Source: a virus. From it: a DNA stretch of 64,000 nt. Both the position numbers and the translations under genes were made by a program. Within the stretch, counting starts at the first letter, position 1, and each line of letters opens with the position of its first letter. Under the pieces are notes generated by a model. It was not told the origin of the DNA, did no database searches, and was given only the letters and a program-made list of their open reading frames with translations. The DNA is taken from IMG/VR virus record IMGVR_UViG_3300044701_003160, positions 1-64,000 of that record; one strand, 5' to 3'. Below are positions 29,289-46,225 of the stretch, in pieces.

Positions 29289-31811
29289 TTAATACTCCCC
29301 ACAATCAATAATAATATTTTGTAAGAATCTTTCTGTACCAATTGCAACAATAACTGTAGAAATTCCTGCTGTATCATTAAAAATTAAACTTCCACCAACT
29401 CCAACACTTCCTAATATTGTAAGTTGTTCTGTTGGATTCGTTGTACCAATACCAACATTTGATAGAGTATGAATTCCTACATCAGTTTTAATCCAGTAAC
29501 TATCACCAATTATACCTTGAACACCCTGAACACCCTGAACACCTTGTGGTCCTTGAAGACCCTGAATTCCTTGAAGACCTTGGGTTCCTTGAAGACCCTG
29601 TAATCCTTGAGGTCCACGAATATTTCCTACATTTGTCCAAGAAACACTATCATAAATCCATAAGTTTCCTGTATTCGTATCAATAACACCATCACCAGAT
29701 CCTGCCGATGGGAATGCTGTATTCAGATCAGATTGCTCGTTTCCTAGAGTAAGAGCAAGAGAACCAATAATATTCAGAGATGTTCCTGTTTTACCCTGAA
29801 GACCTTGAACACCCTGGTTAGAAAGACCCTGAAGACCTTGTAGACCCTGAACTCCCTGAGAACCTTGTGAACCAGTATCTCCCTTATCACCAGTTCTTGC
29901 AAATGTGATAATTACATCTTCATCATTACTGAATGATGATGTGCTTCCAGAAACATAAGCACAGAAGACTTGGAAATAACCACTCAGTTCTGTGATTGAA
30001 GATATTGTGAAGAGTGCAAAGTCAGAACTATCAAATTTATTAGATATTCTAAAATGTCCTTTGATTGTTGATGTACTATCATCAATTGTTCTTAGGAAAG
30101 ATTGAATATCAGTAGAACCATCGTTTTGGTCGTCAATATAAAGTTCAAGCGCAATAGAAAGATTTAAATTGTTGAACTTTAAGTAACCAATACCAGGATC
30201 AGAATTAGTGGTATCTGTACTAAAAGTATAATCAAAAGTAGCACCACCAAAGTTTCCATCTTTACCGGATATTCCTTGAGTGCCTTGTCTTCCTTGAGTA
30301 CCTTGAACTCCTTGATTGCTTAGACCTTGCAATCCTTGAAGTCCTTGGAGTCCTCTTTGTCCTTGAAGTCCTTGAAGTCCTTGGGATCCCTGAAGTCCTT
30401 GGGATCCTTGATTACTTAAACCTTGAGCTCCTTGATTACTGCGTCCTTGAACACCTTGAAGACCTTGAAGTCCTTGATGTCCCTGAATACCTTGATTTGA
30501 TAATCCTTGCAATCCCTGGAGGCCTTGTCTTCCTTGAGATCCTCTATCACCTTGAAGTCCTTGGGATCCTTGATTACTTAAACCCTGTAACCCCTGAAGA
30601 CCTTGATTTCCCTGAAGACCTTGATTTCCCTGAAGACCTCTTTGTCCTTGAAGTCCCTGCTGTCCCTGAAGTCCCTGGAAACCTCCAGTACCTTGCAATC
30701 CTTGAGATCCTTGATTACTTAGACCTTGAGCTCCTTGATTACTGCGTCCTTGAACACCTTGAAGACCTTGAAGTCCTTGATGTCCCTGAATACCTTGATT
30801 TGATAATCCTTGCAATCCCTGGAGGCCTTGTCTTCCTTGAGATCCTCTATCACCTTGAAGTCCTTGGGATCCTTGATTACTTAAACCTTGAAGACCTTGA
30901 TTTCCTTGTAGTCCTTGGGATCCTTGATTACCTTGAAGTCCTCTTTGTCCTTGAAGTCCCTGCTGTCCCTGAAGTCCTTGGGATCCTTGAAGTCCTTGAG
31001 ATCCTTGATTACTTAGACCTTGAAGACCTTGAAGTCCTTGGCGTCCAAAATCACCTTGAAGTCCTTGATGTCCCTGAAGACCTTGATGTCCCTGAAGTCC
31101 TTGATTTCCTTGAAGTCCTTGATGTCCCTGAAGACCTTGATGTCCCTGAAGTCCCTGAAGACCCTGACGACCTTGAAGACCTTGGGTTCCTTGATGACCC
31201 TGAAGTCCTTGGTGTCCCTGAAGACCTTGATTTCCTTGAAGTCCTTGAAGTCCTTGAAGTCCTTGATTTCCCTGAAGACCTTGACGACCTTGAAGTCCTT
31301 GATTTCCCTGAAGGCCTTGGTGACCCTGCAGGCCTTGAATACCTTGATCGCCCTGCAGTCCTTGAAGACCTTGAAGACCTTGAGTTCCTTGATTCCCTTG
31401 AGTACCTTGTCTTCCTTGAGTACCTTGTCTACCTTGAAGACCTTGTGTTCCTTGAGTTCCTTGGTTTCCTGTTCCTTGAAGACCTTGAAGACCTTGTAAT
31501 CCCTGAAGTCCCTGTGTTCCTTGAAGACCTTGAGTACCTTGGCGACCCTGAGTGCCTTGTATTCCTTGAAGACCTTGAGTTCCTTGAATACCAAATAATC
31601 CTTGAGTTCCTTGAACTCCTTGATTACTTAAACCTTGTAATCCTTGACGACCTTGAGTTCCTTGAGGCCCTTGTGTTCCTTGAAAATTACTTAAAGGTCC
31701 TTGAGTTCCTTGAAGACCTTGAGTACTTCCAGCCTCTCTTGTAAGTTTAATAGAGGGATTATACCCTACAGTAACATTATAGCTGGTGCTTCCAAGAGAA
31801 ACTGTAGGCAT
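29289..31811 (-). CDS. Long collagen-like tail fibre, 840 aa
   Basis: Residues about 30-515 are almost uninterrupted Gly-X-Gln repeats (GLQ most frequent, also GNQ, GHQ, GRQ, GVQ), the longest collagen array here. Then a beta head (FDYTFSTDTTNSDPGIGYLK), two shorter collagen segments at about 645-672 and 737-765, and a C-terminal VGIGTTNPTEQLTILG motif. Two long blocks inside the shaft are near-identical to each other. The ATG overlaps the upstream stop as TAATG (31809-31813). Probably the main long-fibre shaft. Confidence 0.85.
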   Translation of the reverse strand: MPTVSLGSTSYNVTVGYNPSIKLTREAGSTQGLQGTQGPLSNFQGTQGPQGTQGRQGLQGLSNQGVQGTQGLFGIQGTQGLQGIQGTQGRQGTQGLQGTQGLQGLQGLQGLQGTGNQGTQGTQGLQGRQGTQGRQGTQGNQGTQGLQGLQGLQGDQGIQGLQGHQGLQGNQGLQGRQGLQGNQGLQGLQGLQGNQGLQGHQGLQGHQGTQGLQGRQGLQGLQGHQGLQGHQGLQGNQGLQGHQGLQGHQGLQGDFGRQGLQGLQGLSNQGSQGLQGSQGLQGQQGLQGQRGLQGNQGSQGLQGNQGLQGLSNQGSQGLQGDRGSQGRQGLQGLQGLSNQGIQGHQGLQGLQGVQGRSNQGAQGLSNQGSQGLQGTGGFQGLQGQQGLQGQRGLQGNQGLQGNQGLQGLQGLSNQGSQGLQGDRGSQGRQGLQGLQGLSNQGIQGHQGLQGLQGVQGRSNQGAQGLSNQGSQGLQGSQGLQGLQGQRGLQGLQGLQGLSNQGVQGTQGRQGTQGISGKDGNFGGATFDYTFSTDTTNSDPGIGYLKFNNLNLSIALELYIDDQNDGSTDIQSFLRTIDDSTSTIKGHFRISNKFDSSDFALFTISSITELSGYFQVFCAYVSGSTSSFSNDEDVIITFARTGDKGDTGSQGSQGVQGLQGLQGLSNQGVQGLQGKTGTSLNIIGSLALTLGNEQSDLNTAFPSAGSGDGVIDTNTGNLWIYDSVSWTNVGNIRGPQGLQGLQGTQGLQGIQGLQGPQGVQGVQGVQGIIGDSYWIKTDVGIHTLSNVGIGTTNPTEQLTILGSVGVGGSLIFNDTAGISTVIVAIGTERFLQNIIIDCGEY
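30270..31725 (-). repeat. Longest collagen-like coding repeat array
   Basis: About 160 Gly-X-Gln triplets. A block around 30420-30560 is repeated almost exactly around 30720-30870, showing internal duplication. Confidence 0.85.
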
Positions 31812-32232: not shown

Positions 32233-32811
32233 ATGAGTAAGTTTGTAAAAAGAGGATGGTATTATCTCCCCGATATTATTACACCAGAAGAAGCAATTAA
32301 TATTAAGTATCAAAACCTTTGTGGTGCTGTAAATGATTTGGGTTCTCTTAATGGACACTGGGATCCGGAGAGAGGTAGAGTATTGACTTGCTATGCACCA
32401 CCCTCTTGTACTTTCGTGATGAAAAGAATTCAACCAGTTCTTGAAAATCTTCTTGGAGAAGAACTTTTACCAACTTATTGGTTTTCTACAACTTATCATA
32501 AAGGTGGATGGATGAACTGCCATACTGACCGTCCATCTTGTGAGGTCTCTGTCACGATGAATATTTGCGGTGATGCTCCTTGGCCTATCAAATTAAAAGA
32601 TAAGACTGGAAAAAATCAAGCAGTAGTCACTCCAGTAGGACACGGAGTTGCATATTTGGGAACAGAAGTAGAGCACTGGAGAAGTCCTTTAAGAACTCAC
32701 AAGAATGATCGCTTTATGCAACTGTTTCTACACTTTGTAAGAAAAAACGGTCAATATGCAGACTATGCATTTGATCGTAGTGATAAGTGTTATCAGTTAT
32801 TACACAGATAA
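32233..32811 (+). CDS. 2-oxoglutarate/Fe(II)-dependent oxygenase, 192 aa
   Basis: Double-stranded beta-helix dioxygenase pattern: metal ligands His97 and Asp99 in NCHTDRPSCEVSVTMN, the distal His148 in EVEHWRSPL and a 2-oxoglutarate-binding Arg near 160 (NDRFMQLFLHF). Such enzymes hydroxylate protein side chains, nucleobases or small molecules. It is one of only two plus-strand genes in the window, divergent from the fibre operon, and converges on the Tfa-like gene. Prolyl hydroxylation of virion proteins is possible, but the collagen shafts lack Pro. The substrate is not evident. Confidence 0.8.
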   Translation: MSKFVKRGWYYLPDIITPEEAINIKYQNLCGAVNDLGSLNGHWDPERGRVLTCYAPPSCTFVMKRIQPVLENLLGEELLPTYWFSTTYHKGGWMNCHTDRPSCEVSVTMNICGDAPWPIKLKDKTGKNQAVVTPVGHGVAYLGTEVEHWRSPLRTHKNDRFMQLFLHFVRKNGQYADYAFDRSDKCYQLLHR

Positions 32812-33342
32812 TGGATCGTTAATCATCGGAACTTTTCTCAAATCTTCAATATATGAAGTGTAAATTGATTGATCTACTGATACACCTGCTGGAGGTGCGG
32901 GAAGTTCGGTTGGAAAAGTTGCTGCACTAGGAAGATCGCGAAGAGACTGTCTCCAATCTTTAAATTCTGTTGAAAGATTAGTATCAGTTTCTTTTGCTTT
33001 AATTACAATCCAATCAGTTTGATTTAAAAGTTGATCTCTGTATTTGCGAACAAGATTAAGACGCTTTGTTGATTGTCTTGCATCATATGCTGCAATTTCT
33101 GCATCCCATTCTGCTTGAGTAAGAACAGCAAGACCTTCTTTTTCTTCAATTACTGTTTCGTCTGGACAAGTTGAAAAGAAAAATTCAATTCCATTTTCAT
33201 CAAAAAGTGTATAAACTTTCTCAAGACCTTCGGCAGTAAAATTAATTACACCGAACATTGGTTGGGCCCATTGTTCTGGCGTTGTTGCAAAAACACTTGG
33301 ATTATCCCTATCTAACAAATAATGTTTTATAAGTTGGGTCAT
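32800..33342 (-). CDS. Tfa-like tail-fibre assembly protein with N-terminal extension, 180 aa
   Basis: The C-terminal 75 residues (KYRDQLLNQTDWIVIKAKET, then WRQSLRDLPSAATFPTELP) match the Tfa-type ending seen at 16596-16967. The N-terminal 100 residues have an alpha/beta pattern (FNFTAEG-type, YTLFDENGIEFFF, LTQAEWDAEIAAYDAR). Its end overlaps the plus-strand oxygenase gene by 12 bases in convergent orientation. Late motif CATAAATA at 33368-33375. A chaperone for kelch-type or collagen-type fibres is likely. Confidence 0.65.
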   Translation of the reverse strand: MTQLIKHYLLDRDNPSVFATTPEQWAQPMFGVINFTAEGLEKVYTLFDENGIEFFFSTCPDETVIEEKEGLAVLTQAEWDAEIAAYDARQSTKRLNLVRKYRDQLLNQTDWIVIKAKETDTNLSTEFKDWRQSLRDLPSAATFPTELPAPPAGVSVDQSIYTSYIEDLRKVPMINDPLSV

Positions 33343-33367: not shown

Positions 33368-33375
33368 TATTTATG
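33368..33375 (-). promoter_or_regulatory. Late promoter motif CATAAATA
   Basis: Minus strand, 25 bases before the ATG at 33342. The TAA stop of the oxygenase gene at 33371 is part of the motif. Confidence 0.6.
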
Positions 33376-34030
33376 GAACCTTAATTCCATACTTCTGTTC
33401 TATTTCTCTATCTTGTTCTTCTTTTGTTTTGAATCCTTGAACTCTCATCCAAGTTACAAGAGTGTATCTTTTACCAGAAAGTACAGGTTCAACACAGTGC
33501 TTAAAGTATCTTGAGGAAGGAAAACAAACAAGAAGGCCTGGTTCTGGTTTAATGGTGACTCTTAAATCTGGAAATGTAAAATATCCACCATCAAAATCAT
33601 TATTGAGAAAAAGAACCGTAGAAAGATCACGATCTACACTCTTCTTCCACATTTGAGTTCCATCGGGATTCGTCCAAAGTGCTTCTGCATCATAGTGAGG
33701 TTTATAGTGCCCTCCTTTTTCATAGTAAAGAAGTTGAGGCATTTCACTATCACGAATTTTAAAATTATAAAAAGGATTGATAACGTGGTCAATAATGTTT
33801 GTCATCAGGTCGTGAATTTGAGGAAGTATCGGTGTTACATCAGCACACTTTACATCTCTGGATGTTTTATCTACCTTATGTTCTTGTTGCTTTGTAAGAT
33901 TAGTTTTATCGGGGTCAAACACACCCATCTGTTCCATTTCTGCACTATTTGCATAATCAATCAGATATTTACAGTTTTCTTTCGTGACTACTTTTGGTTG
34001 AATTAAAATATTGGATAATAAATCATTCAT
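33371..34030 (-). CDS. Prolyl 4-hydroxylase-like 2OG/Fe(II) oxygenase, 219 aa
   Basis: Closely fits the P4H family: LLYYEKGGHYKPHYD with His112 and Asp114, STVLFLNNDFDGGYFTFPD, PEPGLLVCFPSS, distal His178 and Arg188 (the 2-oxoglutarate anchor) in KHCVEPVLSGKRY. P4H-type phage enzymes are common in cyanophages. It lies just downstream of an 18-blade kelch protein whose repeats are rich in Pro (STPTPKLSQ), a plausible substrate by position; this is inference. Late motif CTAAATA at 34053-34059. Confidence 0.9.
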   Translation of the reverse strand: MNDLLSNILIQPKVVTKENCKYLIDYANSAEMEQMGVFDPDKTNLTKQQEHKVDKTSRDVKCADVTPILPQIHDLMTNIIDHVINPFYNFKIRDSEMPQLLYYEKGGHYKPHYDAEALWTNPDGTQMWKKSVDRDLSTVLFLNNDFDGGYFTFPDLRVTIKPEPGLLVCFPSSRYFKHCVEPVLSGKRYTLVTWMRVQGFKTKEEQDREIEQKYGIKVP

Positions 34031-34052: not shown

Positions 34053-34059
34053 TATTTAG
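34053..34059 (-). promoter_or_regulatory. Late promoter motif CTAAATA
   Basis: Minus strand, 22 bases before the ATG at 34030, containing the TAA stop (34056-34058) of the upstream kelch gene. Confidence 0.6.
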
Positions 34060-36842
34060 TTTGCGTTTGAGACTGCTGCTAAACCACTTCTTGCTTGAGA
34101 TAACTTAGGTGTTGGAGTTGTTATGGTTTCTGTTGAAAAATCTAGACGGTCTATAGTACAAACAAGAGTAGGACCACCACCACCAAAGTAACCATAAGAA
34201 CTACTTGAGGTTGCTGCTAAATTTTGTCTTGCTTGAGATAATGTAGGTGTTGGAGTTGTTATGGTTTCTGTTGAGAAATCTAAACGGTCTATGGTGGAAA
34301 CAACAGTAGGAGTACCACCACCACCAAAGTAACCATAATTGGTACTTTGGACTGCTGCTAAATTTTGTCTTGCTTGAGATAATGTAGGTGTTGGTGTTGC
34401 TACGGTTTCTGTAGAGAAATCTAAACGGTCTATAGTACAAACAAGAGTAGGAGTACCACCACCACCAAAGTAACCATAAGAACTACTTGAGGCTGCTGCT
34501 AATCCACCTCTTGCTTGAGATAATTTAGGTGTTGGAGTACTTACGGTTTCTGTTGAGAAATCTAAGCGATTTATAATAGAAACACGAGTAGGAGTACTAC
34601 CACCACCAAAGTAACCATAAGAACTACTTGAGGTTGCTGTTAGGAAATTTCTTGCTTGAGATAACTTAGGTGTTGGTACTGATACTGTTTCTGTAGAGAA
34701 ATCTAGACGATCTATGGTACAAACAAAAAGGGGAGTACTAGTCAAACCACCACCAAAGTAACCATAAGAACTACTTGAGGTTGCTGCTAATAATTGTCTT
34801 CCTTGAGATAACTTAGGTGTTGGAGTTGTTATGGTTTCTATAGAGAAATCCAAGCGGTCTATTGTGGAACTATCTGTAGGAACGGCACCACCACCAAAGT
34901 ATCCATAAGTAGCAGAACCAACTCTACGAGTTCCTGTTGCTCCTGATGTTGCTGCTAAACTAGATTTTGCTTGAGATAACTTAGGTGTTGGTGTTGTTAC
35001 GGTTTCTGTAGAGAAATCTAGACGGTCTATGGTGGAAACACGAGTAGCAGGAGGAGTAAAATAACCACCACCAAAGTAACCATAAGAACTACTTGAGACT
35101 GCTGCTAAACCACTTCTCGCTGAAGATAACTTGGGTGTTGGGACTGTTACTGTTTCTGTAGAGAAATCTAAGCGATCTATGGTACAAACACGAGTAGCAG
35201 GAGGAACAAGACCACCACCGAAATAACCATAAGAACTATTTGAGACTGCTGCTAATTCTTGTCTTGCTTGAGATAACTTAGGTGTTGGTGTTGTTCTTGT
35301 TTCTGTGGAAAAATCTAAACGGTCTATGGTGCAAACACCAATACTAGCGTCGGGCCCTCCACCTGCAAAGTAACCATAAGAACTACTTGAGACTGCTGCT
35401 AAACCATCTCTTGCTTGAGATAATTGATAGGTTCCTGGTGTTGATCTAGTTTCTGTAGAGAAATCTAGACGGTCTATGGTACAAACACGAGTAGCAGGAG
35501 GAATAAGGCCACCACCAAAATAACCATAAGAACTACTTGAGACTGCTGCTAATTCTTCTCTGCCTTGAGATAACTTAGGTGTTGGTACTGATACAGTTTC
35601 TGTGGAGAAATCTAAGCGATCTATGGTACAAACACGAGTAGCAGGAGGAACAAGACCACCACCGAAATAACCATAAGAACTATTTGAGACTGCTGCTAAT
35701 TCTTGTCTTGCTTGAGATAACTTAGGTGCTGGAGTACTTATGGTTTCTGTGGAGAAATCTAAACGGTCTATGGTAGAAACAAAAGTAGGAGTAGCACCAC
35801 CAGCAAAGTAACCAGTAGTAGCACTCTCGGGCCAGTTGGTGAACTTAGGTGAACTTCTAAAGGTTTTAGGTTTATTAATTTGTGTTGCACCGGAACCTAT
35901 TCTTGCTACAGATAAATCGGGCCCTGGAGTTGTTACGGTTTCTGTAGAGAAATCTAAACGGTCTATGATAGAAATAATAGTAGGAGTAGAAGTTTCACCA
36001 CCAGCAAAGTAACCATAAGAGTTACTTGAAGTACCTGCTGCAGAAGATTTTGATGCAGATAACTTAGGTGTTGGTGTTGTTCTAGTTTCTGTAGTAAAAT
36101 CTAGGCGATCTATGGTAGAAACAACAGCAGGAGTAGGAATAATACCACCACCAAAGTAACCATAACTATCATTTTCTACAGATTCTAAAGTTGATTTTGC
36201 TTGAGATAACTGATAAGTTCCTGGTGTTGCTCTGGTTTCTGTAGATAAATCTAGACGGTCTATAGTGCAAACAAAAGTAGTTGGGGCACTAGCACCACCA
36301 GCAAAGTAACCATAAGAACTATTTGATACTGACGTTAAATTTCTTCTTGATGATGATAACTTGGCTGCTATGACTGGAGATTGTATGGTTTCTGTAGAAA
36401 AATCTAAACGATCAATTGTGGAATAAAAGGTGCTAACAGGAAGGACAGCATAACCACCACCAAAATATCCATATAAATTAGTTGCGACTGCTGATGTTCC
36501 TCTTTTTGCTGCAGAAAGATTAGAAACTGCAGCCGTTTCAGTTTCCGTAGAAAATTCTAAGCGATCAATAGTAGAAATATCTCCACCAGCAGTGATTCCC
36601 CCAGCAAAATAAGCATAAAAATTATTTGTTGCAACACCAAAGTTAGTTTTTAAAATTGGGGAAGTTGAGGCTGTTACGACTTCTGTAGTAAAATCTAAAC
36701 GGTCAATTACACAAGTAGTACCAGGTTCTGCACCTGCGACATAATATCCATAGAGAGCCGAAGGAGTGTTTACGTCAAAACTTTCATTAATATTTGCAAT
36801 TTGTTCTGTTCTAACTTCTCTAAGTGAAAATATTCCAGACAT
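34056..36842 (-). CDS. Kelch-like protein with 18 blades (3 x 6), 928 aa
   Basis: Eighteen repeats of about 48 residues: SSSYGYFGGGxxPTxVCTID, RLDFSTETVSTPTPKLSQAR, then xxLAAV. The GG pair, the [IV]DRLDF strand and the PxLSxAR segment fit kelch beta-propeller blades. A distinct linker (FTNWPESATTGYFAGG) begins blade 7 and another (SGATGTRRVGSATYG) begins blade 13, dividing the protein into three sets of six. The N-terminus MSGIFSLREVRTEQ is shared in pattern with the other two kelch genes. Probably a virion surface fibre. Its ATG overlaps the sulfotransferase stop as TAATG. Confidence 0.85.
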   Translation of the reverse strand: MSGIFSLREVRTEQIANINESFDVNTPSALYGYYVAGAEPGTTCVIDRLDFTTEVVTASTSPILKTNFGVATNNFYAYFAGGITAGGDISTIDRLEFSTETETAAVSNLSAAKRGTSAVATNLYGYFGGGYAVLPVSTFYSTIDRLDFSTETIQSPVIAAKLSSSRRNLTSVSNSSYGYFAGGASAPTTFVCTIDRLDLSTETRATPGTYQLSQAKSTLESVENDSYGYFGGGIIPTPAVVSTIDRLDFTTETRTTPTPKLSASKSSAAGTSSNSYGYFAGGETSTPTIISIIDRLDFSTETVTTPGPDLSVARIGSGATQINKPKTFRSSPKFTNWPESATTGYFAGGATPTFVSTIDRLDFSTETISTPAPKLSQARQELAAVSNSSYGYFGGGLVPPATRVCTIDRLDFSTETVSVPTPKLSQGREELAAVSSSSYGYFGGGLIPPATRVCTIDRLDFSTETRSTPGTYQLSQARDGLAAVSSSSYGYFAGGGPDASIGVCTIDRLDFSTETRTTPTPKLSQARQELAAVSNSSYGYFGGGLVPPATRVCTIDRLDFSTETVTVPTPKLSSARSGLAAVSSSSYGYFGGGYFTPPATRVSTIDRLDFSTETVTTPTPKLSQAKSSLAATSGATGTRRVGSATYGYFGGGAVPTDSSTIDRLDFSIETITTPTPKLSQGRQLLAATSSSSYGYFGGGLTSTPLFVCTIDRLDFSTETVSVPTPKLSQARNFLTATSSSSYGYFGGGSTPTRVSIINRLDFSTETVSTPTPKLSQARGGLAAASSSSYGYFGGGGTPTLVCTIDRLDFSTETVATPTPTLSQARQNLAAVQSTNYGYFGGGGTPTVVSTIDRLDFSTETITTPTPTLSQARQNLAATSSSSYGYFGGGGPTLVCTIDRLDFSTETITTPTPKLSQARSGLAAVSNAN
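35161..35284 (-). repeat. 124-bp perfect repeat, copy A
   Basis: Identical base for base to 35605-35728; covers the variable part of one kelch blade and the start of the next, so it is not just the conserved core. Confidence 0.85.
35605..35728 (-). repeat. 124-bp perfect repeat, copy B
   Basis: Identical to 35161-35284; blades 8 and 11 of the same gene carry the same variable loop (LVPPATRVC). Confidence 0.85.
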
Positions 36843-37669
36843 TAGATTCCAAATACAGAGTACTTCGGAGTTAGTTGTCGCCAGAACTCCATTTCTTTAT
36901 ATTTATCCATAATATACTTACTAAGATACTTTGAATTATCTCTGTGTATTTTTTCAACTTTATTTCTGACAGTATGCATATTCTCAAGGCCATAAACCAC
37001 ATCATTCTCATCAAACTTTGGTTTTACATTTGAAAAATCATAAGAATACTCAGGTATTCTTAGAAATGAATGAATACGATTAAGTTCTCTTTGAGGATTG
37101 GAAATTAAATCCTCATATTCTACAAATAACAAATATCTCTGATGACTCTTACGAAATGCTTCTGTAAGTGCGTGATAAGATTGACATATAATACCACTTG
37201 GAGACATTAGAAAATCACATCGATTATCATTTGTAAGTTCTAAGTTTCTTTCTACGAGAGCTTTATCAACAAAAGATGTTGTTTTACTGCGTTCAATTAA
37301 AGAAAGAAAAGAAACCATAATGTCCTGAATGTTTCTTACAGGACAAATGATCTTTGGTTCTGGAGTGATGTAATCTTTGATGTGTTGTATTTGATTCACC
37401 CAACCTCTTGACTTATCAATAATAATCGGTTCTGGTGTATCAAAGTAATAGTTATGAGGTATGGATGATAAAACTCTATGTGCTGCTTCTGGTTTTGGAT
37501 GTGCTTTATATTGCTCTGAGTTATATAACAAATACTCCTCAGTATAATGTATTGTATCTAAAAGAGGAGAGTTTGTAGATGCGTGTATCTGAGGATTTTG
37601 ATTCAGAAGTGCAGTCAGAAGTGTCGAACCAGATCTTGGAAGACCTGAAAGAAAGTGAAAGGTTTTCAT
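36842..37669 (-). CDS. PAPS-dependent sulfotransferase-like protein, 275 aa
   Basis: Start chosen at the ATG at 37669 because the family begins MKTFHFLSGLPRSGSTLLTA; the frame opens 18 codons earlier inside the previous gene. LPRSGSTLL is the 5'-phosphosulfate-binding loop, and PVRNIQDIMVSFLSL (about residue 108) fits the 3'-phosphate site. The remainder matches small bacterial sulfotransferases in length. It would transfer sulfate from PAPS to a hydroxyl on a sugar, Tyr or other acceptor. It lies between two kelch genes, so these Tyr/Ser-rich proteins or attached glycans are candidate targets (inference). Confidence 0.85.
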   Translation of the reverse strand: MKTFHFLSGLPRSGSTLLTALLNQNPQIHASTNSPLLDTIHYTEEYLLYNSEQYKAHPKPEAAHRVLSSIPHNYYFDTPEPIIIDKSRGWVNQIQHIKDYITPEPKIICPVRNIQDIMVSFLSLIERSKTTSFVDKALVERNLELTNDNRCDFLMSPSGIICQSYHALTEAFRKSHQRYLLFVEYEDLISNPQRELNRIHSFLRIPEYSYDFSNVKPKFDENDVVYGLENMHTVRNKVEKIHRDNSKYLSKYIMDKYKEMEFWRQLTPKYSVFGI

Positions 37670-37686
37670 AATATAGGTTTTTGGGA

Positions 37687-37693
37687 TATTTAG
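37687..37693 (-). promoter_or_regulatory. Late promoter motif CTAAATA
   Basis: Minus strand, 17 bases before the ATG at 37669; the TAA stop of the kelch gene (37690-37692) is inside it. Confidence 0.55.
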
Positions 37694-40506
37694 TTTGAGT
37701 TTGAGACTGCTACTGGTCCCCATCTTTCTGCAACAAGTTTTTGTGCCGGTACTGATGTGGTTTCTGTAGAGAAATCTATACGATCTATAGTAGAAACAGT
37801 AACAGGACCAGAAATAAGACCACCACCAAAGTAACCATAAGAACTACTTGAGGTTGCTGCTAAATCACTTCTTGATGAAGATAACTTAGGTGTTGGTGTT
37901 GTTACGGTTTCTGTAGAGAAATCTAGACGGTCTATGGTAGACACAGTAGCACCACCAGCAAAGTAACCATAAGAACTACTTGAGGTTGCTTGTAAAGCAG
38001 ATTTTGCTTGTGATAACTGATAGGTTCCTGGCGATGTTATAGTTTCAGTAGTGAAGTCTAAGCGATCTATGGTGCAAACAGAAGGAGGAAGATTACCGCC
38101 ACCAAAGTAACCATAAGAACTACTTGAGGTTGCCGTTAAATTTTCTCTTGCCTGAGATAATTTAGGTGTTGGTGTACTTACAGTTTCTGTAGAGAAATCT
38201 AGACGATCTACAGTGCTAATAATACCAGGAGCAGGAGCACCAGGAGCATAACCACTACCAAAGTAACCATAAGAACTACTTGAGGTTGCTGATAATTTCC
38301 ATTTTTCTAGAGATAACTTAGGTGTTGGTGTACTTACAGTTTCTGTAGAGAAATCTAGACGATCTATGGTAGAATAAAATCCAGAAGAGAATCCCCCACC
38401 ACCAAAGTAACCATAAGAACTACTTGAAGTTGCTGATAATTTCCATTTTACTGCAGACAACTTAGGTGATGGTGTTGTAATAGTTTCTGTAGAGAAATCT
38501 AGACGGTTTATTGTACTAGTTCCAGCAGCTGCAAATCCACCTACAAAATATCCAGCAGTTGCAGAACCAACTCTACGAGTTCCTGTTGCTCCTGATGTTG
38601 CTGCTAAGTTATCTCTTATTTGAGATAACTTAGGTGCTGGAGTACTTACGGTCTCTGTGGAGAAATCTAAACGGTCTATAGTGCAAACACGAACAGTAGG
38701 AGTATAACCACCACCAAAGTAACCATAAGAACTACTTGAAGCTGCTGCTAAACTAGATCTTGCTTGAGATAACTTAGGTGTTGGAGTACTTCTGGTTTCT
38801 GTAGAAAAATCTAGGCGATCTATGATGCAATAATTACCACGAGGAGGTGTCTGGCCACCACCAAAGTAACCATAAGAACTACTTGAGACTGCTGCTAAAC
38901 TCTCTCTTGCTGTAGATAACTTAGGTGTTGGTACTGATACGGTTTCTGTGGAGAAGTCTAGACGGTCTATAGTACAAAAAACATCAGTAGAAGCAAAACC
39001 ACCACCAAAGTAACCATAAGAACTACTTGAGACTGCTGCTAAACCACTTCTTGCTTGAGATAACTTAGGTGTTGGAGTACTTATGGTTTCTGTTGAAAAA
39101 TCTAAACGATCTATGGTACAAACACGAGTAGGAACAGTAACAGAACCACCACCAAAGTAACCATAAGAACTACTTGAGGTTGCTGATAATTCACCTCTTG
39201 CTACAGGTAAGTTAGGTGTTGGTGCTATTACTGTTTCTGTTGAGAAATCTAGACGATCTATAGTGGAATAAAAAGTAGAAGGAGGATTAAGACCACCAAC
39301 AAAATAACCATAAGAACTACTTGAGACTGCTGCCAAACTTTGTCTTGATTGAGATAACTTAGGTGCTGGAGTACTTATGGTTTCTGTGGAGAAATCTAAA
39401 CGGTCTATGGTAGAAACAAAAGTAGGAGCAGCACCGCCACCACCAAAGTAACCAGCAGTAGAACTCTCAGGCCAATTGGTAAACTTAGGAGAAAGTTGAA
39501 AAATTGGATTGCGATTGATTTGAGTTGCTGCTAATCCACCTCTTGCTTGAGATAATTTAGGTGTTGGAGTACTTACGGTTTCTGTGGAAAAATCTAGACG
39601 ATCTATGGTGGTAATATAAGTACTAGCAGCAGAAGAACCACCACCAAAGTAACCATAAGAGCTACTTGAGACTGCTGCTAAATTATCTCTTGCTTGAGAT
39701 AACTTAGGTGTTGGAGTACTTACGGTTTCTGTAGAAAAATCTAGGCGATCTATGGTAGTAACAAAAGCAGGAGTAGAAGTTTCACCACCAGCAAAGTAAC
39801 CATAAGAACTACTTGAGGTTGCTGATATATCTTCTCTTGCTTGAGATAACTGATAAGTTCCTGGAGTTGTTCTGGTCTCTGTGGAGAAATCTAAACGGTC
39901 TATGGTACAAACAATAGCGGGAGTAGGAATAAGTCCCCCACCAAAATAACCATAAGAACTATTCGAAACTGCTGCTAATCCAACTTTTGCTTGAGATAAC
40001 TGATAGGTTCCTGGTGTTGATCTAGTTTCTGTAGAGAAATCTAAACGGTCAATGGTACAAACACGGGCAGGAGTAGGAGTAAGACCACCCGCAAAATAAC
40101 CATAAGAACTACTTGAGACTGCTGCCAAACTTTGTTTTGCTTCAGATAACTGATATGTTCCTGGAGTTGCTACGGTTTCTGATGAGAAATCTAAACGGTC
40201 TATGGTGCAAAATCTAATCGTGATTGGAGAAAAAAGTCCACCAGCAAAGTAACCATAATTGGTACTTTGGACTGCTGCTAAATTACTTCTTGCTAGAGAT
40301 AACTGATAGGTTGCTGGAGTTGTTCTGGTTTCTGTAGTGAAATCTAAACGGTCAATAGTCGTATAAAATGCAAGTGGTACTGGACCAATACCACCACCAC
40401 CAAAGTAACCATAAAGACGACCAGAAATATTCAGGTTTAGACCCGATGTTGTATTACTAACTTGTAGATCATAAACACGATCTAAACCGAATACGTCTCC
40501 TTGCAT
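37690..40506 (-). CDS. Kelch-like protein with 18 blades (3 x 6), 938 aa
   Basis: Eighteen kelch-type blades as in the 34056-36842 gene. Blade 7 starts after a linker with SPKFTNWPESSTAGYFGGGG; blade 13 after SGATGTRRVGSATAGYF. The N-terminus is MQGDVFGLDRVYDLQ. Variable loops after the GGG (for example GPVPLAFYT, SAASTYITT) differ between blades while the framework is nearly constant, as expected for a surface scaffold with variable loops. It shares a 119-bp perfect stretch with the third kelch gene. Confidence 0.85.
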   Translation of the reverse strand: MQGDVFGLDRVYDLQVSNTTSGLNLNISGRLYGYFGGGGIGPVPLAFYTTIDRLDFTTETRTTPATYQLSLARSNLAAVQSTNYGYFAGGLFSPITIRFCTIDRLDFSSETVATPGTYQLSEAKQSLAAVSSSSYGYFAGGLTPTPARVCTIDRLDFSTETRSTPGTYQLSQAKVGLAAVSNSSYGYFGGGLIPTPAIVCTIDRLDFSTETRTTPGTYQLSQAREDISATSSSSYGYFAGGETSTPAFVTTIDRLDFSTETVSTPTPKLSQARDNLAAVSSSSYGYFGGGSSAASTYITTIDRLDFSTETVSTPTPKLSQARGGLAATQINRNPIFQLSPKFTNWPESSTAGYFGGGGAAPTFVSTIDRLDFSTETISTPAPKLSQSRQSLAAVSSSSYGYFVGGLNPPSTFYSTIDRLDFSTETVIAPTPNLPVARGELSATSSSSYGYFGGGSVTVPTRVCTIDRLDFSTETISTPTPKLSQARSGLAAVSSSSYGYFGGGFASTDVFCTIDRLDFSTETVSVPTPKLSTARESLAAVSSSSYGYFGGGQTPPRGNYCIIDRLDFSTETRSTPTPKLSQARSSLAAASSSSYGYFGGGYTPTVRVCTIDRLDFSTETVSTPAPKLSQIRDNLAATSGATGTRRVGSATAGYFVGGFAAAGTSTINRLDFSTETITTPSPKLSAVKWKLSATSSSSYGYFGGGGFSSGFYSTIDRLDFSTETVSTPTPKLSLEKWKLSATSSSSYGYFGSGYAPGAPAPGIISTVDRLDFSTETVSTPTPKLSQARENLTATSSSSYGYFGGGNLPPSVCTIDRLDFTTETITSPGTYQLSQAKSALQATSSSSYGYFAGGATVSTIDRLDFSTETVTTPTPKLSSSRSDLAATSSSSYGYFGGGLISGPVTVSTIDRIDFSTETTSVPAQKLVAERWGPVAVSNSN
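38957..39075 (-). repeat. 119-bp perfect inter-gene repeat, copy A
   Basis: Identical to 43489-43607, 4.5 kb away in another kelch gene. It includes the variable loop FASTDVFC, so shared ancestry by copying rather than framework conservation is likely. Confidence 0.85.
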
Positions 40507-40512
40507 TTGTTT

Positions 40513-41379
40513 TTATGCCTGTTCTGGTTGCTTGAGTTGTTCGTTGAATAATGAAACTCCTTCAGTTCCTGTAGCAGGATCTAAAAACTTTGGTTCTTCT
40601 TGTTGTCTTCCTTCAAGAACATTATACATTCCACTAATCTCTTCAATACCTTTTGATACGTGATCTTGAAGTGAAGTGAGGAAAGACATTGGATTATTTG
40701 GATCCCCAAAAGTTCCCTTCGTTCTATTCACATCATCAGGAAGAACTGTTGGAGCACTTGCACGTCTCATAGAACGAATATTACCAGCATTTACTCCAGT
40801 TTTTGCTTGTAACAAGTCATCAAGAGACTGGTTAGCAAGACGGCGTTCCCAATAAACAGGTTGATCTTCATCATACTGTTCTTTAGTAATCAGTTTTCCA
40901 CCATTCAATTCAATCAATCTTTCAATCAATTTATCAAAAAACTCAAGCTCATCAACTTGAGATTGGAAACCTTGATTTAGTCCACGAATCAAACGATGAA
41001 AATTAAATTCATCAATATCATACCAGCAGAGTTCTTTTCCACCTCTTCCATTTTCCCACCAGACTGGTTGAGTTTTATCTTTTCCATCCCACTTATAATG
41101 AAACTCTCTAGCAATTCTTTTTGCTTCTTGAATACCTTGAAGTAAACCTTCAGCAACACTCTTTCGGTTAATAATTGCTGCTTTAAATGCTGATGGAATT
41201 GTAAAGTTATCGTGTACTACAAATTTTTCAATCTGAAAGTTGGAACGACCCTGAGCAAGTTCTGTTTCACTTTCTTCCCACTTTGTACATTCATTATAAA
41301 CCTTAAACATAAACTCATTTTTATCATCTAAAACATCGTCTGCTTTAGCAAGTGCAATATCCTTATAAATTTCAGACAT
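40513..41379 (-). CDS. Hypothetical protein, 288 aa
   Basis: Mixed alpha/charged protein with DIDEFNFHRLIRGLNQGFQS, a helical central part, and a loose C-terminus rich in Gln, Glu and Pro. I recognise no domain. It follows the GT4/FkbM gene and precedes a kelch gene by six bases. A late motif (41421-41428) makes it a late gene. It could be a tail or fibre chaperone, or an enzyme subunit; nothing in the sequence decides. Confidence 0.75.
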   Translation of the reverse strand: MSEIYKDIALAKADDVLDDKNEFMFKVYNECTKWEESETELAQGRSNFQIEKFVVHDNFTIPSAFKAAIINRKSVAEGLLQGIQEAKRIAREFHYKWDGKDKTQPVWWENGRGGKELCWYDIDEFNFHRLIRGLNQGFQSQVDELEFFDKLIERLIELNGGKLITKEQYDEDQPVYWERRLANQSLDDLLQAKTGVNAGNIRSMRRASAPTVLPDDVNRTKGTFGDPNNPMSFLTSLQDHVSKGIEEISGMYNVLEGRQQEEPKFLDPATGTEGVSLFNEQLKQPEQA

Positions 41380-41420
41380 AATACCCCGTAGAATTAAAAG
41401 AACTTCAGTTCATTATAATT

Positions 41421-41428
41421 TATTTATG
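41421..41428 (-). promoter_or_regulatory. Late promoter motif CATAAATA
   Basis: Minus strand, 41 bases before the ATG at 41379. Confidence 0.55.
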
Positions 41429-41435
41429 TAAAAAT

Positions 41436-43094
41436 TTAATACCTTACAAAATGATAATCTCCATCAGCATCTGATGAATTTTGTGTGAAATGAGAAACTA
41501 ATTCATATCCAATAAATTTCATATAATCGATTACATCATCTCTCATCGGAGCACCTTTCATATACTCTTGATTCTGAAGTTCAAGAATAATATGAGGACA
41601 ATAACGAATCGTATTCACAGCACCTTTAATAATATCAAGTTCACAACCTTGCACATCCATCTTAATTAGGTCTGGAGTTGGCCATCCTTTTTCACGAACT
41701 AGAGTATCTAAGGTCTTTGTTTTTCGAATAACTTCTCTATAGTGTTCATTCTTAAATGCAGCAACATTATATGGAAAGTCCTGATAGTTAAGTTCATAAT
41801 AAGAACATCCGCCAGGATTCATAAAATTTTCAAAGAAGGTCACTTCTTTATAATCATTATCACTCAGAACTTCAATTGCATAGTCAACTCCTTTAGTTTT
41901 GTAAAGATTTTCAAGAGGTACAAATCCATCAATATGGTAAATTTTTGAATTCTCCCAAATCATTTGAGCAACTTTAGACCAGTGCAAACAGTTTGAACCA
42001 ATATCATAGATCACTTTTGGTTCTATTGATTGTTCATATTTCATTTGATGTAAGTAATTAATATGCTCATATGGAGGTATTAATTGTTCAGAATAATTTA
42101 AATAATAGTCATCAAGATTTGAATTAGAACCTCCAATAATTTTATTGATAAGTTCTTTCCACATTAAGGAAATTTTTTTCCAGTTATAATTTTCAATCGC
42201 AAACTTTGAAATTACTTGTGATGCTTGTTCATATTCATCTCTTGCAATATCAAAGAAATGTAGAGCCCTTATCACTTCTTCTGTAAAGTTTTTATGGAAT
42301 GTATTATCAGGTATCCAACCTCTTGGAGTAGTCTTTCCACTCATCGGAATATACTTGCCCATTCTATTTGATGTTTCTGGAAGTGCTCCCATATCTGTAG
42401 TGATAGGAAAGCATCCACAACTCATCGCTTCTGCTAATGAGACACAGAAGGTTTCTTCCCATACATTTGGATGAATATAAAAAGCAGCATCTTGAATATG
42501 AGGTAGTAAATCTTCACGGTCAATACAAGGAGAATACTCTACACCTGGAAGTGCTTGAAGTTCCTTGTAGATAGGAATGAATGGTGAAGGCTCTAGTCCC
42601 TTATCAGTTGTGATGGTCTCATTCTCACCTTCTCCTGGTTGAATATCTCCATAAAGAGACATCGAAGAAAACACTTTGAGTTTTGCATCTGGATGATGTT
42701 TGATGACTTCTTTCCAGATAGGAACTAATGGTGCAATACCCTTATGTGGTGCAGAGAAAAAGATACAGGTCTTTGACTTTGGTTTTCCCGATGGGCGGAA
42801 CATATCATCCACACCATTTGGAATCACTACAAGTTTTTCTGCAGGAGCACGATTGTACTTGATATATTGTTCTCTCTCCCAATTAGACACACAGACAATC
42901 TTATCAATCTTGTCGATGTGTTGTGGAAGATCTCTGTGTCCTGCTTGGTCGCAATTATCGTGTGCCCAAATGACCTTATATTGCTTATCTGATTTTATGA
43001 TTTCGTGTGTGGTTCTTTTTACATCTACATTTTCGGGAAATGTATAATATTGCGAAAGATAATAAAAAGAACTTTCAGTTGCTCCAGATTTCAT
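41436..43094 (-). CDS. GT4 glycosyltransferase fused to FkbM methyltransferase, 552 aa
   Basis: Residues about 50-320 are a GT4 (glycosyl transferases group 1) domain: VCVSNWEREQYIKY, VVIPNGVDD, HPNVWEETFCVSLAEAMSCG near residue 211 (the E...E donor-binding motif). Residues about 360-550 are an FkbM-type methyltransferase: IYDIGSNCLHWSK and IKMDVQGCELDIIKG near 481. It would add and methylate a sugar. No N-terminal Rossmann half is complete, so the acceptor-binding part may be shortened. A late motif CTAAATA lies at 43116-43122. Confidence 0.85.
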   Translation of the reverse strand: MKSGATESSFYYLSQYYTFPENVDVKRTTHEIIKSDKQYKVIWAHDNCDQAGHRDLPQHIDKIDKIVCVSNWEREQYIKYNRAPAEKLVVIPNGVDDMFRPSGKPKSKTCIFFSAPHKGIAPLVPIWKEVIKHHPDAKLKVFSSMSLYGDIQPGEGENETITTDKGLEPSPFIPIYKELQALPGVEYSPCIDREDLLPHIQDAAFYIHPNVWEETFCVSLAEAMSCGCFPITTDMGALPETSNRMGKYIPMSGKTTPRGWIPDNTFHKNFTEEVIRALHFFDIARDEYEQASQVISKFAIENYNWKKISLMWKELINKIIGGSNSNLDDYYLNYSEQLIPPYEHINYLHQMKYEQSIEPKVIYDIGSNCLHWSKVAQMIWENSKIYHIDGFVPLENLYKTKGVDYAIEVLSDNDYKEVTFFENFMNPGGCSYYELNYQDFPYNVAAFKNEHYREVIRKTKTLDTLVREKGWPTPDLIKMDVQGCELDIIKGAVNTIRYCPHIILELQNQEYMKGAPMRDDVIDYMKFIGYELVSHFTQNSSDADGDYHFVRY

Positions 43095-43115
43095 TTCAGA
43101 ATGATATAGTTACCT

Positions 43116-43122
43116 TATTTAG
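43116..43122 (-). promoter_or_regulatory. Late promoter motif CTAAATA
   Basis: Minus strand, 21 bases before the ATG at 43094, containing the TAA stop of the kelch gene (43119-43121). Confidence 0.6.
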
Positions 43123-44981
43123 TTTGAGTTTGAGACTGCTGCTAAATTAAATCTTACTGAAGTGAGTTTTTGTGATGGTACTGATACTGTTTCTGATGAA
43201 AAATCTAGACGATCTATAGTGGAAACAATAGTAGGAGTAGTACCACCACCAAAGTAACCATAAGAACTACTTGAGGTTGCTGCTAAATCTCTTTTTGCTT
43301 GAGATAACTTAGGTGTTGGTGTTGATACTGTTTCTGTTGAAAAATCTAGACGGTCTATAGTGCAAACAGTAGTAGGAAAACCCCCACCACCAAAGTAACC
43401 ATAAGAACTACTTGAGGTTGCTGCTAATAATTGTCTTGCTTGAGATAACTGATAGGTTCCTGGTGTTGATACTGTTTCTGTTGAAAAATCTAGACGGTCT
43501 ATAGTACAAAAAACATCAGTAGAAGCAAAACCACCACCAAAGTAACCATAAGAACTACTTGAGACTGCTGCTAAACCACTTCTTGCTTGAGATAACTTAG
43601 GTGTTGGTGTTGTTACGGTTTCTGTAGAGAAATCTAAACGGTCAATGGTGCAAAAAACAGCAGGAGTAGGAGAATTTCCACCACCAAAATAACCATAAGA
43701 ACTGCTTGAGGTTGCTGCTAAATCTCTTCTTGCTTGAGACAACTTAGGTGTTGGTACTGATACAGTTTCTGTGGAGAAATCTAAACGGTCTATAGTGCAA
43801 ACAACAGCAGTAGTGGGAATCAAACCACCACCAAAATAACCATAAGAACTACTTGAGGCTGCTGCTAAACTAGATCTTGCTTGAGATAACTTAGGTGTTG
43901 GTACTGATACGGTTTCTGTAGAGAAATCTAAACGGTCTATAGTAGAAACACTATCACCACCCCAATAACCATAAGTTGCAGAACCAACTCTACGGGTTCC
44001 TGTTGCTCCTGATGTTGCTGCTAAATCACGTCTTGCTTGAGATAACTTAGGTGTTGGTACTGTTACTGTTTCTGTGGAGAAATCTAGACGGTCAATCGTG
44101 CAAACAACAGATGGAGCTCCGGGAAGGCCACCACCAAAGTAACCATAAGAACTACTTGAGGTTGCTGCTAATTGAGATCTTGTTTGAGATAATGAAGGTG
44201 TTGGAGTACTTACGGTTTCTGTAGAGAAATCTAAACGGTCTATGGTACAAACATAAGTACCGGGAATATTGCCGCCACCAAAGTAACCATAAGAACTACT
44301 TGAGACTGCTGCTAAACCATCTCTTGTTTGAGATAACTTAGGTGTTGGAGTACTTATGGTTTCTGTGGTGAAGTCTAGACGGTCTATGGTGAAAACACGA
44401 GTAGTAGGAGGAACAAAACCACCACCAAAGTAACCATAAGAACTACTTGAGACTGCTGCTAAATTGTATTTTGTTTGAGATAACTTAGGTGTTGGGACTG
44501 TTACGGTTTCTGTAGAGAAATCTAAACGGTTTATGGTGCTAACAGCAGCACCAATAGGAGGAATACTACCACCACCAAAGTAACCATAAGAACTACTTGA
44601 GACTGCTGCTAAACTCTCTCTTGCTGTAGATAACTTAGGTGTTGGAGTACTTATGGTTTCTGTGGTGAAGTCTAGACGATCTATGGTACTGTAGTAGATA
44701 GGATTTGGACCGGGAGCGACATCAAACCCACCACCAAAGTAACCATAAGAACTGCTTGAGACTGCTGCTAAGAAACTTTTTGCTTGAGATAACTTAGGTG
44801 TTGGTACTGATGTGGTTTCTGTGGAGAAATCTAAGCGATCTATGGTAGAAAAACGAGAACTATTATATCCACCACCAAAGTAACCAGTAGTAGCACTTTC
44901 AGGCCAAGATTCAAAATTTCTATTACTTACATTTAGAACTTGTTTTTTATAGACCTTTTTGAGACCAAATACTCCAGACAT
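43119..44981 (-). CDS. Kelch-like protein with 12 blades (2 x 6), 620 aa
   Basis: Twelve kelch-type blades. The protein begins MSGVFGLKKVYKKQVLNVSN directly followed by the WPESATTGYFGGG linker that opens the second propeller of the larger paralogues. Blade 7 begins after SGATGTRRVGSATYGYW. It thus corresponds to propellers two and three of the 18-blade proteins, with the first absent. Blade 10 is identical at DNA level to a blade of the 37690-40506 gene. Confidence 0.85.
   Translation of the reverse strand: MSGVFGLKKVYKKQVLNVSNRNFESWPESATTGYFGGGYNSSRFSTIDRLDFSTETTSVPTPKLSQAKSFLAAVSSSSYGYFGGGFDVAPGPNPIYYSTIDRLDFTTETISTPTPKLSTARESLAAVSSSSYGYFGGGSIPPIGAAVSTINRLDFSTETVTVPTPKLSQTKYNLAAVSSSSYGYFGGGFVPPTTRVFTIDRLDFTTETISTPTPKLSQTRDGLAAVSSSSYGYFGGGNIPGTYVCTIDRLDFSTETVSTPTPSLSQTRSQLAATSSSSYGYFGGGLPGAPSVVCTIDRLDFSTETVTVPTPKLSQARRDLAATSGATGTRRVGSATYGYWGGDSVSTIDRLDFSTETVSVPTPKLSQARSSLAAASSSSYGYFGGGLIPTTAVVCTIDRLDFSTETVSVPTPKLSQARRDLAATSSSSYGYFGGGNSPTPAVFCTIDRLDFSTETVTTPTPKLSQARSGLAAVSSSSYGYFGGGFASTDVFCTIDRLDFSTETVSTPGTYQLSQARQLLAATSSSSYGYFGGGGFPTTVCTIDRLDFSTETVSTPTPKLSQAKRDLAATSSSSYGYFGGGTTPTIVSTIDRLDFSSETVSVPSQKLTSVRFNLAAVSNSN
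43489..43607 (-). repeat. 119-bp perfect inter-gene repeat, copy B
   Basis: Identical to 38957-39075 in the 18-blade kelch gene. Confidence 0.85.
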
Positions 44982-44987
44982 TTGTTC

Positions 44988-45650
44988 TTACTCTTCTTGA
45001 TATACGTGAGAACCAACATGAGACAGACGAATACTTGTATCTAACCAAGATTTGTATCCTACACTTGATGCTCTTTCAAAAAATGAAAAATCTTCTGGTA
45101 GGAAAGACATATCTTTTCTCATTTCAAGAAAATAATGATATGAATTGTGATATTCTTGTTCTGTTGGAGGATAACTAGAATTATTTAGTGCTGGATAGTA
45201 CTTCAATTCATCTCCATAACGATTTTGAATGTTCTGAAATACTTGACGTTTGATACAACAAAAACCAAATCCAATGTTTTCAATCTGCACCAACCCTTCT
45301 TCTGCGACTGGTGGTGAAGAAATATTGTAATTGTAACGAAGTGGAATACCTTTCATCGGATATGCACCACATACAATATCTCTGTCTGCTAAGATAACCT
45401 TAAGTGCATCTTCGTTTGTAAATCCCACATCAGCATCAATAAACAGAATTTTCTCATACTCAGTATTATTCATATAGAAATTAGCAATTCTTGATCTCGC
45501 TTTGGTTACAAGACTTTCATTCGCTATTGTTAGAAGACCGTGATCGATTCCATTTTTATTCAATCCCTTTCCAAGATTAAAAAGACCTTTTGCAGTCTTA
45601 TCACTTACCATTCCACCATAGCAAGGCATCGCAATCAATACAGAACTCAT
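44988..45650 (-). CDS. GT-A-type glycosyltransferase, 220 aa
   Basis: Begins SVLIAMPCYGGMVSDKTA and has the donor-binding DxD motif in KILFIDADVGFTNEDAL near residue 73, then GAYPMKG and SIGFGFCCIKR-like segments. This matches short GT-A (Anp1/GT2-like) glycosyltransferases seen in cyanophages. Cytoplasmic. Coupled to the upstream oxygenase gene by ATGA (45647-45650) and followed by a kelch gene, which suggests that it glycosylates a virion protein or a carrier-linked glycan (inference). Confidence 0.8.
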   Translation of the reverse strand: MSSVLIAMPCYGGMVSDKTAKGLFNLGKGLNKNGIDHGLLTIANESLVTKARSRIANFYMNNTEYEKILFIDADVGFTNEDALKVILADRDIVCGAYPMKGIPLRYNYNISSPPVAEEGLVQIENIGFGFCCIKRQVFQNIQNRYGDELKYYPALNNSSYPPTEQEYHNSYHYFLEMRKDMSFLPEDFSFFERASSVGYKSWLDTSIRLSHVGSHVYQEE

Positions 45651-46225
45651 ACCATTAACTCCACATTAAAAGAAATAGAAATACGATTTTCATCTGTTGG
45701 GTTTGGATTTACAAAATGAGGTAACCAAGAAGGAAATAAAACTAACTCACCAACCTTTGGAGTATGAGTAAAATGATTTGTATCCACCAAACAACTCTGT
45801 TGAAAATCCATCAATTTTGCAGGCCTTGGATCTTCAAAAGTAATACCTGGAGAACCTTGAGGAAGTGCAACATAATAAACAGCACTCATCCAACCAGTCG
45901 GATGAACGTGTGTAAAATTATATCCACCTTTTGGATTTACATTTCCCCACATCGAACGAATCACAAACTCAGGCCGATTTTGTGAAAGGTCTGAAATAAT
46001 TGACTGAACAATATTAGAAGATTTTTCTAGAAGTGGTTTAAAGGTCTCATTATTCCAGAGAGTTATATCACTCTGCCAACCATTACGATTACTTCTAACT
46101 TCTCCTGGACTCTCTTTTGAAAGTCTTAGAAGTTCTTGTTTATAACTCTCATTCTCTGCTTGATCGTAAATATCGACAAAGTACAAGTCAGTCGGAAAAA
46201 GACTCCGACATTTAATATTAAACAT
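45647..46225 (-). CDS. 2OG/Fe(II) oxygenase-like protein (TIGR02466 type), 192 aa
   Basis: Pattern of the putative 2OG-Fe(II) oxygenase family TIGR02466: YNFTHVHPTGWMSAVYYVA with the His-x-His site (106, 108), GITFEDPRP, GELVLFPSWLPHFVNPN with His170 and Arg181 in ENRISISFN. The metal site has His where typical members have Asp, as in this family. Substrate unknown. It is translationally coupled to the downstream glycosyltransferase gene, so the two may act on the same target. Confidence 0.75.
   Translation of the reverse strand: MFNIKCRSLFPTDLYFVDIYDQAENESYKQELLRLSKESPGEVRSNRNGWQSDITLWNNETFKPLLEKSSNIVQSIISDLSQNRPEFVIRSMWGNVNPKGGYNFTHVHPTGWMSAVYYVALPQGSPGITFEDPRPAKLMDFQQSCLVDTNHFTHTPKVGELVLFPSWLPHFVNPNPTDENRISISFNVELMV

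Follow-up and report, generated by a model that had tools for sequence, protein, structure and literature searches.

Six-bladed kelch propellers are described from the BTB-kelch proteins Keap1, KLHL12 and KLHL20 and, as designed scaffolds, from the SAKe6 proteins. All are built, as the phage proteins presented here are predicted to be, of six four-stranded blades in which a GG doublet closes strand B, with the last strand A closing blade 1 and the BC and DA loops placed on one face. In Keap1, this closing strand A completes blade 1 (PMC4668279), and in kelch complexes the substrate surface is formed by the BC and DA loops (PMC4668279, PMC6720452). Structural alignments give 14-20% identity between the phage proteins and the BTB-kelch or SAKe6 proteins. 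Unlike BTB-kelch proteins, the phage proteins carry neither a BTB domain nor the canonical Tyr and Trp, are phage-encoded, and would consist of tandem propellers with near-identical blades.

Kelch proteins are already known in phages, where they are mostly unexplained. Those of jumbo phages (CBB_550, CBB_552 and CBB_554, and proteins of PhiPA3, Noxifer, Phabio and BcepSaruman) resemble ours in their kelch-type fold, their occurrence in large myoviruses and their Foldseek matches, with low sequence identity. We know of no comparable six-blade sets or cassette among them, the comparison being by sequence and fold matches only. CBB_552 is present in the virion of phage CBB, which has tail whiskers, and the CBB authors were unable to assign the whiskers to the CBB kelch proteins (PMC5259590). 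Propellers also occur in the phage receptor-binding proteins phi11 Gp45, PRD1 P2 and PhiKZ gp131C (PMC4901313), likewise on or near a host-recognition device; these differ in that, in the cases described, each chain bears a single propeller of five or seven blades, and no kelch relationship has been reported for them. True homologues are found in Synechococcus phage S-SKS1 (Llyrvirus) and in phrog_19111 and share the cassette (kelch, sulfotransferase, hyp288, 2OG oxygenase); in S-SKS1 they are annotated as hypothetical, and the reference record seems to show them with broken reading frames. Finally, diversity-generating retroelements are similar in that they combine a phage scaffold that stays constant with a surface that varies. 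The open-licence literature searched described neither propeller swapping in phages nor strict six-blade tandem sets or the three-gene cassette. The main new result is the exchange of propeller cassettes.

The window analysed here is a stretch of 64,000 nucleotides from a viral record that holds two photosystem reaction-centre genes and is therefore assigned to a cyanophage. Three of its minus-strand ORFs (A, B and C) contain exactly 18, 18 and 12 kelch-type units. We consider it probable that their products are virion-borne recognition proteins, that is, anchored strings of propellers with a variable binding face, diversified by cassette exchange. The repeat counts, the predicted fold of C, the place of the variability, the cassette exchange and the synteny are shown directly; virion location, ligand binding and enzyme roles are inferred. 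The three proteins and their predicted parts are as follows.

34056..36842, minus strand: kelch protein A, 928 aa, 18 blades, predicted three propellers; N-terminal type FSLREVRTEQ
35820..36752, minus strand: predicted propeller 1 of A, blades 1-6; linker ...SPKFTNWPESA at 35820-35879
34908..35819, minus strand: predicted propeller 2 of A, blades 7-12; terminal linker SGATGTRRVGSAT at 34908-34946
34059..34907, minus strand: predicted propeller 3 of A, blades 13-18, from repeat reading and identity comparison
37690..40506, minus strand: kelch protein B, 938 aa, 18 blades, predicted three propellers; N-terminal type GDVFGLDRVYDLQ
39460..40413, minus strand: predicted propeller 1 of B, blades 1-6; linker ...SPKFTNWPESS at 39460-39519
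38560..39459, minus strand: predicted propeller 2 of B, blades 7-12; terminal linker SGATGTRRVGSA at 38560-38595
37693..38559, minus strand: predicted propeller 3 of B, blades 13-18, from repeat reading and identity comparison
43119..44981, minus strand: kelch protein C, 620 aa, 12 blades, predicted two propellers; N-terminal type GVFGLKKVYKKQ
44892..44981, minus strand: putative anchor at the N-terminus of C (residues 1-30), with a helix predicted at 6-19, then NFESWPESA
43974..44891, minus strand: predicted propeller 1 of C, blades 1-6, residues 31-336 with linker; Keap1 kelch match, Z 42.5
43974..44012, minus strand: inter-propeller linker SGATGTRRVGSAT of C, residues 324-336; homologue breakpoints lie at the corresponding linker
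43122..43973, minus strand: predicted propeller 2 of C, blades 7-12, residues 337-620, 68% identical to propeller 1 of C

Units are 43-53 residues long (56-66 where a linker is attached) and share the layout YGYFGGG, variable loop, TIDRLDFSTET, TPTPKLSQAR, LAAVSSSS. In A and B, unit 6 terminates with a longer linker (...KFTNWPES-); the linker SGATGTRRVGSA(T) closes unit 12 in A and B and unit 6 in C. The N-terminus of C, whose anchor motif is kept among homologues, bears a WPES-type variant of the first linker (NFESWPESATTGYF) ahead of unit 1, and the first six-blade set is therefore absent from C. An earlier sequence-only reading had proposed the same 18, 18 and 12 units, the two linkers at these blade borders and a short protein lacking the first set. 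The repeat reading of the three ORFs agrees on all of these, the linkers lying exactly at the proposed borders and C opening with the first-linker variant.

The Pfam kelch model PF24681 matched the three proteins with 83.8, 87.4 and 78.7 bits (curated cut-off 50; E=5e-22 to 1e-24), and PF13415 and PF13418 also exceeded their curated cut-offs. The sole PHROGs family matched was phrog_19111, to which no function is assigned. The GG doublet at the end of strand B is nearly invariant, with glycine at columns 6 and 7 in 1346 of 1420 and 1394 of 1421 repeats, respectively. The canonical kelch Tyr (strand C) and Trp (strand D) are absent from the repeats, which have Leu/Ile and Val/Thr instead; this therefore is a divergent kelch-type group, not the canonical kelch repeat. 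No BTB domain was matched by Pfam in the three proteins, in which about 30 residues precede blade 1.

AlphaFold2 modelled C with a mean pLDDT of 88 (alignment of 59 sequences) and with a similar strand pattern in both halves; an N-terminal helix was placed at residues 6-19 with a modest pLDDT of 57-66. Residues 28-329 matched the six-bladed kelch domain of Keap1 with a Z of 42.5 and an rmsd of 1.9 Å over 291 residues (Foldseek, VIA-align). The designed six-fold SAKe6 propellers fit the model as well as Keap1 does, and SAKe6FR was the top PDB sequence match. Moreover, the first strand of every six-blade set bears the GG doublet and the last is LAAVS, an order that reproduces the Keap1 closure pattern and supports closed six-bladed rings. 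The model thus supports a closed six-bladed kelch-type propeller in the first half of C; for the C-terminal half, a propeller is supported by the matching strand pattern only. The open solenoid is rejected for C on this confident model, which supports the six-bladed propellers foreseen from the repeats. For B, the 18-blade model (11-row alignment) reached a pLDDT of 39, with long strands, and was counted neither for nor against a solenoid. Because of this low confidence, the propellers of A and B, presumed to be three in each, are assigned by homology: they show 49-76% identity to each other and to those of C. Propeller 1 of A is the most divergent (49-53% identity to the others), and propeller 1 of B shows 57-65% identity to the other propellers, save propeller 1 of A (53%). 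Each protein would begin with a short anchor helix, after which come closed six-bladed propellers on conserved linkers, two in C and three in each of A and B.

IMG/VR was scanned with protein C (153 related stretches) and with its alignment (251), the best 80 of each being used; scans with divergent queries gave fewer related stretches. Complete homologous ORFs were grouped at 95% identity into 111 clusters, of which 84 contain 12 repeats, 12 contain 18, three contain 24, one contains 6 and 11 contain other numbers. By automatic count 100 of the 111 are multiples of six, rising to 104 once four divergent proteins with degenerate blades were read by hand (L147, 21 to 24 and 17 to 18; L149, 10 to 12; L157, 11 to 12). 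Of the 117 set boundaries tested, 106 have, after the multiple of six, a gap longer than every non-boundary gap of the same protein. The six-fold pattern is far beyond chance. As regards the exceptions, L049 is due to a frameshift and the S-SKS1 gene to an apparently broken frame, which leaves five with intact frames: L010 (17), L011 (16), L023 (10), L032 (10) and L161 (11). The strict rule of sixes put forward in the sequence-only reading thus fits 104 of the 111 clusters and fails in five intact genes. The repeats of L010, L011, L023 and L032 are very similar, and assembly collapse is therefore a likely, if unproven, cause in these four. The single 6-blade gene, L133, stops at a linker, and the next gene starts shortly after.

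In a tree built from the adjacent 2OG oxygenase, at least three shifts of size class are seen, L147 (24 and 18) lying outside this tree; independent support for steps of six therefore amounts to a handful of events, together with the retention of 12 in most lineages. S-SKS1 was the only close relative among 50,697 phage records, and weak matches were obtained in single-cell marine virus records. A search of 84,980 genomes of bacteria and archaea gave no homologue at the sensitivity used, and a cellular origin was set aside on this ground.

Blades of one phage, with a framework identity of 0.70-0.72 within and between its three genes, are closer to each other than to their counterparts in another phage. 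Between phages, the blade at the same position of the orthologue shows an identity of 0.614, no better than the 0.612 for any other position. In the window, recent exchange among blades and among genes is supported by exact DNA matches, 124 bases long inside A and 119 bases long across B and C. The fixed order that the sequence-only reading had assigned to the propellers therefore stands for the linkers and not for the blades and propellers between them, which recombine.

Whole propellers behave in the same way. In 13 of the 14 listed close pairs (one propeller above 80%), one propeller shows 89-99% and the other 37-77% protein identity; in the remaining pair both exceed 90%. In DNA windows along close pairs, the flanks are mostly 93-98% identical, one propeller is about 99-100% identical and the other mostly 45-60%, with one pair departing from this (second propeller 69-94%). 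The edges are sharp. They lie in the N-terminal anchor, in the linker or within the final few codons, and breakpoints were placed at the anchor, at LSGGQ|S.FRGSKTYGY and at GLAAV|SNSN. Comparison of propeller haplotypes by k-mers showed that, in type A genes, h132 is joined to h131 (one contig), h141 (three contigs) or h178 (two contigs), and that h141 and h178 are found behind additional first propellers. In type B genes, h171 is joined to h170 (two contigs) or h191 (11 contigs). Three haplotypes (h124, h203 and h208) are shared between genes of type A and type B without ever changing slot; across the two types their DNA is 94-95% identical, versus 50-70% for the other propeller. As read from these sequences, propellers are swapped whole between phages and between paralogous genes, with their slot (penultimate or last) kept.

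The homologues are mostly from metagenome assemblies, in which repeats may give rise to chimeras, and both the sixfold counts and the swaps might then reflect misassembly of near-identical repeats. Repeats do cause assembly errors, S-SKS1 has apparently broken kelch genes, and what seems to be one gene is counted at 16 blades in L011 and at 18 in L012. Collapse, however, would yield odd counts, not multiples of six, and the swapped propellers are in most cases so different in DNA that they are easily told apart. Haplotype pairs recurring in separate assemblies, on up to 11 contigs, make chimeras less likely. We regard misassembly as a very improbable source of the pattern.

A diversity-generating retroelement was also considered and rejected: no reverse transcriptase (PF00078) was detected in the 219-kb record, which is possibly incomplete, and controls were positive. 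The kelch system differs from such elements in this respect and in that it would vary by cassette exchange, not by point mutation.

Under cassette exchange, the unit of evolution would be the whole propeller, six-blade cassettes being gained, lost and swapped between phages and the three paralogues by recombination at the anchor, linkers and C-terminus, with the slot preserved. Counts would be held in sixes because recombination between linkers replaces faces and leaves the folding units intact. The sequence record would thereby reveal the unit of selection, an intact six-bladed ring whose number and slot are kept and whose identity is replaced. It looks like a means for the virus to change its binding target while the protein itself need not be rebuilt. 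A stronger version, to which we give an even chance, is a combinatorial system in which three anchored scaffold genes with 2-4 slots each draw six-blade cassettes from a common pool by linker recombination within and between phages. If true, it would give phages a counterpart of modular binding repertoires with no need of a dedicated diversification enzyme.

In order to locate the variability, column entropies were computed over 1,426 repeats. Maxima were found at columns 8-12 and the length-variable loop after GGG (BC loop), and at columns 37-38, directly past the conserved Arg of QAR, which occupies the kelch DA position in an alignment to KLHL20. Lesser peaks occur at columns 27 and 30-31, and the remaining framework is conserved, as anticipated from the constant framework and variable post-GGG loops of the window proteins. 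The most variable residues therefore line one propeller face. That this corresponds to the kelch ligand face is suggestive only, by analogy, of a candidate binding surface. The rigid framework would remain constant, and the binding surface would be formed by the BC loops together with the residue pair that follows the DA Arg.

Between near-identical propellers (13 pairs, 312 loop codons), nonsynonymous differences per codon were 0.032 in the BC loop versus 0.037 in the framework, and the residue pair next to the Arg showed a higher value (0.10, on 70 codons). There was no sign of ongoing loop-specific positive selection between these close alleles, and hypermutation or selection confined to the loops was rejected. 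The similar rates of loop and framework would suit structural decoration, in which the proteins form whisker- or fibre-like appendages, the variable face is used for subunit assembly or is simply relaxed, and no receptor role exists. Tandem propellers with N-terminal anchors would also suit an appendage, and the whiskered phage CBB has kelch proteins, one of them in the virion, although its whiskers could not be assigned to them (PMC5259590). Decoration accounts less well for variability concentrated on the known kelch ligand face, and the wholesale replacement of one propeller beside a neighbour of about 100% identity looks like selection for diversity. We hold decoration to be unlikely and retain recognition proteins as the preferred reading.

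The kelch genes lie in a cassette with the following neighbours.

45647..46225, minus strand: 2OG-Fe(II) oxygenase at the cassette start (PF13759, E=3.1e-26)
44988..45650, minus strand: glycosyltransferase-like protein (phrog_1574) upstream of the type C kelch gene; weak match under the Pfam cut-off, and synteny
41436..43094, minus strand: glycosyltransferase group 1 and FkbM methyltransferase fusion (PF00534, PF05050), cassette member
40513..41379, minus strand: 288-aa protein (phrog_1409), from PHROGs and synteny
36842..37723, minus strand: sulfotransferase (PF13469, E=4.9e-18; synteny)
33371..34030, minus strand: 2OG-Fe(II) oxygenase at the cassette end (PF13640, E=8.1e-16)
32800..33342, minus strand: phage tail assembly chaperone (PF16778, E=3.2e-12)

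The order 2OG oxygenase and glycosyltransferase, kelch, GT/FkbM, 288-aa protein, kelch, sulfotransferase, kelch, 2OG oxygenase, tail chaperone was found in most of 95 loci, some of which overlap on one contig, so that not all are independent phages; complete loci carry three kelch genes. The closing 2OG oxygenase homologue is near the kelch genes in 83 of the 95 loci and the tail assembly chaperone adjoins the cassette in 69. The N-terminal type of a kelch protein moves with its upstream gene, even where the gene order is permuted. A sulfotransferase homologue lies directly upstream of type A genes in 38 of 45 cases, the 288-aa homologue upstream of type B genes in all 48 cases with a recognised upstream gene, and a glycosyltransferase or 2OG oxygenase upstream of most type C genes. 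The 288-aa protein (40513-41379, minus strand) may be a dedicated chaperone or modifying partner of the type B kelch protein.

The surrounding genes are tail-fibre-like. Instead of acting on the virion, the kelch proteins could bind host or rival-phage proteins inside the cell, in takeover, as decoys or in anti-defence. The best-known six-bladed kelch domains (Keap1, KLHL12 and KLHL20) are intracellular peptide binders, and the cassette enzymes could work inside the cell. Against this, the kelch genes sit in the middle of a block of tail-fibre and tail-chaperone genes, the differing conserved N-terminal motifs of the three paralogues suit attachment sites, and, among the kelch-fold matches to jumbo phages in the viral structure library, some bear the name virion structural protein. 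An intracellular role appears distinctly improbable to us. As recognition proteins, the three would most likely be mounted on the virion, probably the tail, via their distinct N-termini and would bind host surface ligands; the cassette enzymes would probably modify the kelch proteins or a partner glycan. If they are virion-borne binders, they would offer a concrete, testable account of how large cyanophages alter host contact at sea, and would parallel in nature the six-fold kelch scaffolds made by design.

Several minor observations concern homologues and the rest of the window. Some type C homologues (L151:2817-5345, L152:6001-8571 and L146:7969-10581) have a C-terminal extension of about 230 aa past blade 12, joined via a glycine-rich stretch, and one breakpoint lies at its start. 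In S-SKS1, the kelch genes (L070, S-SKS1 175000-208007, and L069) are broken up into pieces of 9, 3 and 5 blades that lie at or close to record ends, which suggests a sequencing or assembly error in the repeats. In the window, a 192-aa ORF at 32233-32811 (plus strand) opposes all its neighbours, has no Pfam match and stands beside the cassette in 73 of the 95 loci. Glycosyltransferase-methyltransferase fusions occur at least twice (6250-9114 and 41436-43094, minus strand). Large repetitive proteins adjoin the tail genes at 24227-27007 and 29289-31811 (minus strand), the latter with a long collagen-like (G-L-Q-G-x-Q)n repeat that has few prolines and lies near 2OG-Fe(II) oxygenase genes.
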